A DNA stretch of 35,830 bases from Coriobacteriia bacterium (GTDB lineage Bacteria; Actinomycetota; Coriobacteriia; WRKU01; WQUG01), in the NCBI GenBank assembly GCA_009784345.1, contig WRBW01000007.1, positions 1 through 35,830 on the forward strand, given 5' to 3'. Below are positions 16,725 to 35,830 of the stretch, one piece after another (the stretch's first letter is position 1; every line of letters starts with the position of its first letter). A program made the position numbers and the translations under genes. The notes below the pieces were generated by a model, which made no database searches, was not told the origin of the DNA, and saw only the letters and a list, made by a program, of their open reading frames with translations.

Positions 16725-16750
16725 GAAAGAATTCTGTGCGCCCAAATTAA

Positions 16751-16824
16751 CAAGCAAAACTTTTGGTTTTAGCAAGTTTTGCTTGTATGTAAGCAAAACT
16801 TTCTGATTCATGAAGTTTTGCTTG
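16751..16824. repeat. Tandem pair of AAGCAAAACTT hairpins
   Basis: CAAGCAAAACTT (16751-16762) pairs with AAGTTTTGCTTG (16774-16785) across an 11-nt loop. AAGCAAAACTT (16791-16801) pairs with AAGTTTTGCTT (16813-16823) across another 11-nt loop. Four alternating copies of one 11-mer are thus spaced about 22, 17 and 22 nt apart. The arrangement suits a multi-site operator, or the leftover control region of a lost gene pair. No gene next to it obviously needs it. Confidence 0.75.
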
Positions 16825-16882
16825 TAGGCTGCACTTAGACCGAATGAAGACCCCGCGAGGTGGTCTGCCGACATTGCAGGTG

Positions 16883-33310: not shown

Positions 33311-33682
33311 TTATTTCTCCTTCTTTGCGCCGTAACGGCTACGAGCCTGGGCACGATTTGCGACGGGAGCAGCATCCAGTGCTCCGCGAACTACCTTATA
33401 ACGAACACCTGGAAGGTCCTTAACACGACCACCACGCACCAAAACGATGCTGTGCTCTTGCAGGTTGTGGCCAATACCAGGGATGTATGCGGTTACTTCC
33501 ATGCTGTTTGACAGACGAACACGGCAAACCTTGCGCAGCGCAGAGTTTGGCTTTTTAGGCGTCGTCGTGTAAACACGGGTGCACACACCACGCAGCTGGG
33601 GGTTGCCCTTCAGCGCTGGCGTCTTTGACTTGTCTTCGGCCTTTTTGCGGCCCTTCCTTACTAACTGGTTAATAGTAGGCAA
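33311..33682 (-). CDS. rpsL: 30S ribosomal protein S12
   Basis: 123 residues. [13 protein letters not shown] at the start, [19 protein letters not shown] and [18 protein letters not shown] carry the two lysines (E. coli positions 43 and 88) whose change gives streptomycin resistance. Both are wild type. The start codon is TTG (33682), with AGGAAGG about 8 nt upstream. It is the first gene of the ~14-kb ribosomal transcript and governs decoding accuracy. Confidence 0.97.
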
Positions 33683-33968: not shown

Positions 33969-34074
33969 GCTTGTCATGCCGCACTTGATGCGGCATCTCG
34001 CGTTTGCCCTTTGCCCGTAACCCCATGCACCTGTGGCTTACGCCACAGGACCAGAAACGGGCGCACAGCGCCCG
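33969..34074 (-). repeat. Multi-hairpin repeat element, copy B
   Basis: Read on the minus strand. P1 is CGGGCGC-TGT-GCGCCCG (34058-34074), the linker is TTTCTGGT, P2 is CCTGTGGC-GTAA-GCCACAGG (34030-34049) with a GNRA loop, and P3 is ATGCCGCA/TGCGGCAT (33976-33996), ending in ATGACAAGC. Order, linkers and the end match copy A at 19221-19332. Several spurious open frames cross it. Confidence 0.72.
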
Positions 34075-34108
34075 AACCCCTCATGCTTTTAGCTTTATAG
34101 CTCTCGTC

Positions 34109-34130: not shown

Positions 34131-34212
34131 CTAATTGTTGGCAGAATTTCGATTTCAATCGTCCCCATATCATTCACCATAGCGCACTACACAGCGCCCT
34201 GCTTACAATCAG

Positions 34213-34234
34213 ACTGCGGGTCGGAGCCCGCAGT
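34213..34234. repeat. REP-like palindrome
   Basis: ACTGCGGG (34213-34220) and CCCGCAGT (34227-34234), 8-bp perfect arms with a 6-nt loop, followed by GACGG. It is the last of a series of palindromes that fill the rpsL-cas1 gap. Apart from these and the rpsL promoter, I see nothing in 33683-34300. Confidence 0.6.
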
Positions 34235-34300
34235 GACGGCGGTGTAGTATTCTTGAAATCGTTGCACTTTGTCAGGGTCATTTCTATTTAGGGAGGCACT

Positions 34301-35200
34301 ATGGCATTTCGCACGATTATCATCGAAAGAGCTGCGCGGCTGCATGCACGCAAAGAACAGCTCGTCGTCAAGCAGGACCAGGATATTCGAGTACCGCTCG
34401 ATGACATCCTAGTGATTCTGATTTCTTCTCCCGATGTTGTATTTAGCTCTGCTTTTCTGTCGAAGGTGACGGGTTACGGAATCTGCATCATTACCTGTGA
34501 CAACCGCTATTTGCCTGCGGCAATGGCATGCTCGTTCCTGCCTCATTCGCGGCAGGCAAAGATGACGCAGAAACAATTCAAGATGACAAAGCCCTTTCAG
34601 AATCGTCTGTGGCAGGCACTGGTGAAATCGAAGATCTCTAACCAGGCTGACAGTCTTGACTACTATGGGATTGTTGATGCAGATCGACTGAGAAACTATG
34701 CTGCAAAGGTGGTTTCTGGTGATACCAATAATCTAGAGGGCACAGCAGCGCGCTACTATTTTCCTCGATTGTTTGATGGTCATCTGCGCAGCGATGATAA
34801 TGTGATAAATGACGCTCTAAACTATGCCTATACTATTGTGCGATCTATTGTTGCCCGCAGCATTGTGGCTCACGGCCTGTATCCCCCACTGGGGATTCAC
34901 CACAAAAACGAATTCAATGCTTTCAATCTAGCAGATGACCTAATTGAGCCTTTTAGACCACTAGTTGATGTTTACGTAAGGTCGCATCCCCCTTTGAAGG
35001 ACCAGCTTCAAGTCGAGGATAGACGTGCTTACATGAATTTGGCTCATCTCATGTGTCTGATTGATGGGAAGCGCATGACACTTGCCTCTGCGGTGAGGGC
35101 GACAACATCTAGCTTCGTCGAAGCTTTGAACTGCGGAGACTATCGCAGACTTGTACTGCCCAGCATTGATGGTATCGAGATCAAGAGTGATGCCTCATGA
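34301..35200 (+). CDS. cas1: CRISPR-associated endonuclease Cas1 (type II-like)
   Basis: 299 residues, the length of subtype II-C Cas1. Catalytic residues are in place: Glu146 in NNLEGTAARYYF, His201 in LGIHHKNEFNAFN and Glu216 in NLADDLIEPFRPLVD. Integrates new spacers as a complex with Cas2. Start ATG 34301 with GGGAGG 4 nt upstream. Overlaps cas2 by 4 nt (ATGA). There is no cas9 upstream (ribosomal genes on the other strand and a palindrome-filled gap instead) and no repeat array in view, so it is either an orphan adaptation module or one working with a distant locus. Confidence 0.95.
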   Translation: MAFRTIIIERAARLHARKEQLVVKQDQDIRVPLDDILVILISSPDVVFSSAFLSKVTGYGICIITCDNRYLPAAMACSFLPHSRQAKMTQKQFKMTKPFQNRLWQALVKSKISNQADSLDYYGIVDADRLRNYAAKVVSGDTNNLEGTAARYYFPRLFDGHLRSDDNVINDALNYAYTIVRSIVARSIVAHGLYPPLGIHHKNEFNAFNLADDLIEPFRPLVDVYVRSHPPLKDQLQVEDRRAYMNLAHLMCLIDGKRMTLASAVRATTSSFVEALNCGDYRRLVLPSIDGIEIKSDAS

Positions 35201-35505
35201 GAGTGCTTTTATCGATCGATATGCCGATGCGCGGAAAACGTCAAAGACAGGCGGCCACGAAGATGCGCAAAGACCTTGAAGATGCTGGCTTTACGAGCAT
35301 CCATCGTAATCTATTCTCGCGCGTTATTGGTGGAAGGGAGAGTATTGGGCGTAACATCAAGAGAATTGAAGCTGCCTTGCCAGAATGCTGTGCCGCCCGG
35401 GTCTTCACTATGACAGAGCGGCAGTACGCTGATATCCAAATGATTAATGACGAAAAAAGCGAGCAGGAATTGTTGGTAGACGCTCGAAGACAGCTGGTTT
35501 TTTAA
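35197..35505 (+). CDS. cas2: CRISPR-associated protein Cas2
   Basis: 102 residues. Ferredoxin-like fold beginning MRVLLSIDMPM with the conserved Asp8, then MRKDLEDAGFTSIHRNLFSR. The type II style matches its partner. Forms the Cas1-Cas2 integrase core, where its own nuclease activity is dispensable. Starts inside the cas1 stop. No csn2 or array follows; the next coding sequence begins within 90 nt and is unrelated. Confidence 0.93.
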   Translation: MRVLLSIDMPMRGKRQRQAATKMRKDLEDAGFTSIHRNLFSRVIGGRESIGRNIKRIEAALPECCAARVFTMTERQYADIQMINDEKSEQELLVDARRQLVF

Positions 35506-35592
35506 GGGCAATTACGAAGAAGGTGGGCTAAAGATGCAGCTTGAGAGCATGCTACACTGTTGACTCTTTGACGGATAACGTAGATTATGTAA

Positions 35593-35830
35593 GCATCAAA
35601 CATTACCAGTACCGCAAAGCAAAACGCCGTTATTGCCACGGTGTTTTTCCTGCCGGGCGCAGACCTGCCTGTTATGACGCTCAATCAAGTCAAGATGGCC
35701 TTGCAACTTGCCTTTATCTATGGTGAAGAGTTGACCTTGCAGCGTGCAGCAGAAGCTGCCGTTGTGGTCTTATCAGCCTATGGCTCGCGTGCGGTGGCGC
35801 GCACAGCTACCCGTGACTTGCCGGTCGCTT
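35593..35830 (+). pseudogene. 5'-truncated DUF697-type protein fragment (runs off the right edge)
   Basis: The frame is open from 35593 to the edge after in-frame stops at 35581 and 35590, with no ATG before the conserved part. The translation (QNAVIATVFFLPGADLPVM, then TLNQVKMALQLAFIYGEEL) matches the membrane-associated C-terminal domain of a coriobacterial/actinobacterial DUF697 family. In family members this domain is preceded by ~170 residues, for which there is no room here because cas2 ends 87 nt upstream. A short version from GTG 35641 cannot be excluded. Confidence 0.55.

Follow-up and report, generated by a model that had tools for sequence, protein, structure and literature searches.

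Gene-length DNA next to a CRISPR-type repeat: a type II cas1–cas2 module without detectable cas9 in a Coriobacteriia genome

We describe a type II CRISPR adaptation module that seems to operate without an effector and whose Cas1–Cas2 integrase, as we believe with moderate confidence, inserts gene-length DNA at a CRISPR-type repeat in an integron-like manner. The module lies at one end of the window, i.e. the whole stretch of DNA analysed here, which corresponds to one whole contig (C7; 35,830 nt) from a Coriobacteriia metagenome-assembled genome (MAG; 1.48 Mb, 128 contigs, 85% complete), so the assembly contains no sequence beyond either end. On the forward strand, cas1 (34301–35200; 299 aa) overlaps cas2 (35197–35505; 102 aa) by 4 nt and is followed by a leader-like stretch of 60 nt (35506–35565), a CRISPR-repeat-like 36-mer (CTTTGACGGATAACGTAGATTATGTAAGCATCAAAC; 35566–35601) and an inserted internal fragment of a DUF697/EcsC-like gene, which has no start codon and reaches the contig end (35602–35830). 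Intact cas1 and cas2, no detectable cas9, a repeat at the position of an array and an insert abutting this repeat are thus found together, with the same anatomy in five other loci. A bolder generalization, to which we give slightly less than even credence, is that an effector-free CRISPR integrase files phage, plasmid and chromosomal genes between CRISPR-type repeats as expressible cassettes, as integrons do, across several phyla.

The sequence-only reading of this DNA had proposed a type II-like cas1–cas2 pair with intact active sites, maintained under selection as an orphan module, and both proposals are supported. Cas1 carries E146, H201 and E216, all invariant in an 11-sequence alignment of homologues, and scores 273.8 bits against the type II model TIGR03639 (cut-off 120); Cas2 scores 40.3 bits against TIGR01573 (cut-off 24.5), and the best PADLOC matches are Cas1_II and Cas2_II. 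Asp8 of Cas2 is present in the window, is replaced by Glu in the nearest relative (locus L003, see below) and is absent from the Cas2 proteins of three further loci discussed below (L089, C. coli and L. eligens). Between the window and L003, pN is 0.25 for cas1 and 0.31 for cas2, with pS at about 0.81, i.e. saturated, so that purifying selection has acted on both genes in the absence of an adjoining cas9. Among Cas1 sequences from type II systems of Coriobacteriia, the two pair in a well-supported clade (100/99).

The absence of an adjoining cas9, also claimed by the sequence-only reading, has been confirmed by the genome-wide search which that reading had called for. A position upstream of cas1 is excluded, since that side is occupied by rpsL on the opposite strand (33311–33682; identity read from the ORF sequence), and the other genes upstream are translation genes. 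The Cas9 model TIGR01865, which detected the Cas9s of related loci at 554–871 bits as a positive control, found no match on this contig or elsewhere in the MAG (85% complete), and with a related Cas9 as query no Cas9 was found in this MAG or in that of L003 (90% complete). Among 50 related loci in GTDB genomes, 48 have cas9 in the fetched stretch; the remaining two are L003 and L032, the latter cut off by the start of its contig. A scan for a tracrRNA anti-repeat gave no reverse-strand match to the repeat pattern at up to two mismatches, a threshold that a diverged anti-repeat would escape.

The 36-mer starts 60 nt after cas2, which is where related type II-C loci begin their arrays: the corresponding distance is 60 nt in L003, 66 nt in C. 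coli, 54 nt in L. eligens and about 65 nt in the cas9-bearing II-C relatives. Another contig of the same MAG (C68) contains one copy that is 89% identical and two copies that are about 70% identical, with toxin–antitoxin pairs and small genes lying between these diverged copies. A degenerate repeat pattern finds only these four copies in the MAG, a reversed control pattern finds none, and the pattern is absent from 19 related genomes. A sequence model of the repeat matches only the two genomes that carry this cas1–cas2 pair (those of the window and L003) and not 11 others; as the model was trained on these same copies, its negatives are the informative part. Similarity between the repeats of the window and L003 is modest (22/36 in the best ungapped stretch), a value reached by 2 of 2000 shuffles and 7 of 2000 pairs of real DNA. 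Next to cas2 the window has a single repeat, followed by at least 229 nt without another, and no ordinary array of this repeat (with about 36-nt repeats and about 30-nt spacers) was found in the 85%-complete MAG. The suggestion that the pair serves a distant array is therefore not supported in the assembled part of this genome, of which 15% is missing. The statement that no array lies beside the genes must be amended, as the CRISPR-repeat-like element 60 nt after cas2 had been overlooked.

The DNA behind this element had been taken for a truncated unrelated gene, and a gene fragment it is, yet one that begins at the very base after the repeat. Its 229 nt are 96% identical to an intact gene on contig C34 of the same MAG, with homology from position 35602 up to the end of the contig. 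The 10 differences are without exception synonymous, and the fragment should therefore derive from a working allele, perhaps that of another strain. C7 and C34 share no sequence upstream of the repeat–insert junction, so that a de Bruijn misjoin would itself need a real DUF697 spacer. Whether true insert or misjoin, the junction would thus record an acquisition of chromosomal DNA. In the window one repeat-bounded side of this insert is visible, and its far end lies off the contig.

Inserts with repeats on both sides are present in L003, L089, C. coli, L. eligens and T. saccharophilum. L003 has the closest Cas1 (64% identical) and no cas9; it comes from the Coriobacteriia MAG Lab288P3bin21, probably one of the higher-termite gut series of PMC7024585. 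Here, a 34-nt repeat begins 60 nt after cas1–cas2, and then come truncated phage-like genes over 1,038 nt and an identical repeat, with this exact second copy placed 1,074 nt further on at the very end of the contig. The insert begins inside a gene with an ADP-ribosyltransferase domain and also carries a gene related to phage metallopeptidase-like families; two scans of viral contigs with the insert proteins gave one weak match each.

Beyond L003, in four loci CRISPR-type repeats flank whole or truncated genes of 0.5–1.5 kb beside cas9-less cas1–cas2 genes or their remnants. L089, from another Coriobacteriia genome (G146), has cas1–cas2 without cas9, a Cas1 36% identical to that of the window, and four perfect 36-nt copies of GTTGAACGCTGGGGCAAAACCGACCCGGCGTTCAAC within one contig, which separate inserts of 1301, 504 and 671 nt; 20 further contigs of this genome contain no additional copies. 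Part of a gene for a phage minor capsid protein lies in one insert. The gene at the end of the third insert, compared with an intact copy elsewhere on that contig, stops at the start of the repeat; homology runs 3–4 nt into the repeat, by chance match. ORFs that run through the L089 repeat read it in different frames, and it is therefore not a coding element. The other three loci are on complete plasmids. In Campylobacter coli p13786, a truncated cas1 and cas2 are followed by 66 nt, a repeat, a 1,458-nt insert that carries GNAT and aph(2'')-Ii genes, and an identical repeat; in a check of mobility, one plasmid record only contained this cassette over most of its length with the repeats. Two Lachnospira eligens plasmid records share one locus, with cas2, 54 nt, a repeat, a 676-nt insert and the repeat minus one base, the insert ending in a truncated gene whose sequence reads like the start of a C39-peptidase transporter. 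Treponema saccharophilum pTS1 has a cas2 remnant and then 1,339 nt bracketed by copies of a 36-nt repeat that differ by one mismatch. Across the loci the GC content of the inserts ranges from 0.24 to 0.58. Cas9-bearing relatives, used as controls, show ordinary arrays with a period of about 66 nt. The Cas1s of L089 and C. coli group together (99/98) and apart from the window clade, i.e. there is no single clade, and the arrangement with gene-length inserts may therefore have arisen more than once.

How could such loci be generated? In the mechanism that we propose, Cas1–Cas2 would still be made and would bind the leader–repeat junction 60 nt downstream of cas2. Gene-length fragments (about 0.5–1.5 kb in the relatives) would be joined to the repeat in place of the approximately 30-bp spacers otherwise destined for Cas9, and duplication of the repeat at each insertion would leave repeats flanking whole or truncated genes; in the window genome, the leader-proximal insert would be the piece of the chromosomal DUF697 gene. 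Duplication of the repeat should not require a short insert per se, because both its determinants reside in the target, and short insert length would rather be set by the prespacer-binding side. Known Cas1–Cas2 complexes take short prespacers, and this counts against the integration of long inserts. In the absence of Cas9, long DNA might be integrated whenever both of its ends reach the complex, and what is selected may be the expressed inserts, i.e. immunity-like, toxin–antitoxin and resistance genes. Cas1–Cas2 as the maker of the insertions, its handling of both ends of a long fragment and any benefit are inferred. Among the possibilities raised by the sequence-only reading, a standalone integrase comes nearest to this evidence; what it had missed was the repeat at 35566–35601, the sharp junction and the recurrence of gene-length inserts in related loci.

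An alternative view, which we regard as unlikely, is that these are decaying type II-C loci, in which deletions removed cas9 and the array but spared one or two repeats, and the DNA behind these was placed there by deletion, recombination or other mobile elements. It accords with cas1 being truncated or missing in half of the six loci, namely those of C. coli, L. eligens and T. saccharophilum, and with the divergence of the C68 repeat copies; according to PMC6452270, adaptation modules also occur on their own and can represent remnants. In the window clade, however, cas1 and cas2 are intact and have remained under purifying selection over a long divergence without a neighbouring cas9. Nor does decay predict identical flanking repeats together with gene truncation at the repeat edge, which recur in independent loci.

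Somewhat less probable still, and applicable to the MAG loci only, is an ordinary Cas9-dependent or trans-acting type II locus hidden by broken assembly. Spacers of about 30 nt would then exist, the assembler would have walked from a spacer into its source gene, and cas9 would be located past the contig end or within the unrecovered 15% of the genome. The contigs do break at suggestive places, that of the window 229 nt after the repeat and that of L003 exactly at the second repeat, both MAGs are incomplete (85% and 90%), and some Coriobacteriia keep cas9 downstream of cas2 in opposite orientation (L095; in the type II loci L091, L093 and L095 cas9 lies apart from cas1–cas2). Yet no Cas9 was found in either MAG, the C68 copies would be left unexplained, and capture of DUF697 DNA at the repeat would still be required. 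As the whole story, an assembly chimera is ruled out by the four repeats with gene-length inserts within a single L089 contig and by the three complete plasmids. Finally, a role of the 36-mer as a promoter or operator with no link to cas1–cas2 is highly improbable and was rejected as the main reading: it does contain TTGACG 17 nt before AAGCAT, and two C68 copies lie 20–45 nt upstream of ORFs, but identity spans the whole 37 nt, beyond the hexamers, a promoter scan called neither the window element nor the C68 copies (one overlapping call uses other hexamers), no other genome tested contains the element, not even two from the same genus, and what follows it in the window is a gene fragment without a start codon.

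Integration of gene-length DNA by an effector-less module, the reading that we prefer, invites comparison with several known systems. With the type II-C modules of Coriobacteriia (such as L083–L088), the window shares homologous Cas1 (37–43% identical) and Cas2, the cas1–cas2 order, a first repeat about 60–65 nt after cas2 and a repeat length of 36 nt; it differs in having no detectable cas9, no spacers of about 30 nt, a gene-length insert and an unrelated repeat sequence. By Cas1 and Cas2 sequence the module thus belongs to the type II family, but with no cas9 found and no ordinary array it fails the tests for a type II CRISPR–Cas system. Casposons (casposase/cas1-solo) likewise combine a Cas1-family integrase without a CRISPR effector with kilobase-long DNA, if our reading is right. 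In contrast, the window encodes a type II Cas1 with a Cas2 partner, and neither terminal inverted repeats nor a polymerase gene were seen, with no long inverted repeat pair around cas1 on the contig side, and in the loci with gene-length inserts direct 36-nt repeats flank the inserts rather than one transposon. Integron cassette arrays also have a recurrent site that separates gene-length cassettes, including resistance and toxin–antitoxin genes. However, cas1–cas2 rather than a tyrosine integrase adjoins the site, the inserts are often truncated genes in either orientation, and the separating elements are CRISPR-like direct repeats and not attC. We think that the module works like an integron without being one.

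Stand-alone CRISPR adaptation modules share the presence of cas1–cas2 without an effector, and the review text of PMC6452270 on them does not describe gene-length inserts between repeats. Reviews, in the portions available, cover such modules and casposons and not gene-length inserts, and our searches of the open-access literature yielded no account of such inserts between CRISPR repeats. If our reading is true, CRISPR adaptation machinery has switched from writing short guides to capturing genes, which would return it part of the way to its proposed transposon origin and would give rise to cassette arrays by a second, unrelated route. It makes testable the integration of kilobase-long DNA by type II Cas1–Cas2 and a release from the short-prespacer rule, and it offers an explanation for the position of aph(2'')-Ii between CRISPR-type repeats on the complete plasmid from C. 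coli.

A search of viral contigs gave no match to the window Cas1, an alignment of two Cas1s, the L089 Cas1, an alignment of L089-type Cas2 or two repeat patterns. Four phage records have a Cas1 match (two of them Listeria); L158 has cas9 and a normal array, and L159 is cut off. In the same genus as the window, L096 (5937–11838) has an ordinary cas9–cas1–cas2 locus with a normal array, its cas1–cas2 pair being only distantly related to that of the window. On Acidovorax temperans pEP1 (L163, 672–9309), a type II cas1 is split by an insertion of several kilobases with an ISL3 transposase, and a Tn3 transposase adjoins the split gene. On C. coli p13786 (L154, 5726–9306; NZ_OQ553946.1), the broken cas1–cas2 and the repeat-flanked insert lie between tet(O) and aph(3')-IIIa. 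Elsewhere in the window, 34013–34076 and 34134–34246 are members of a large dispersed REP-like family of intergenic repeats, with about 100 matches to C68 DNA across the MAG, frequently in clusters, and 16750–16826 contains paired repeats of 35–36 nt (AAGCAAAACTTT...) in both direct and inverted copies, 6 nt apart.
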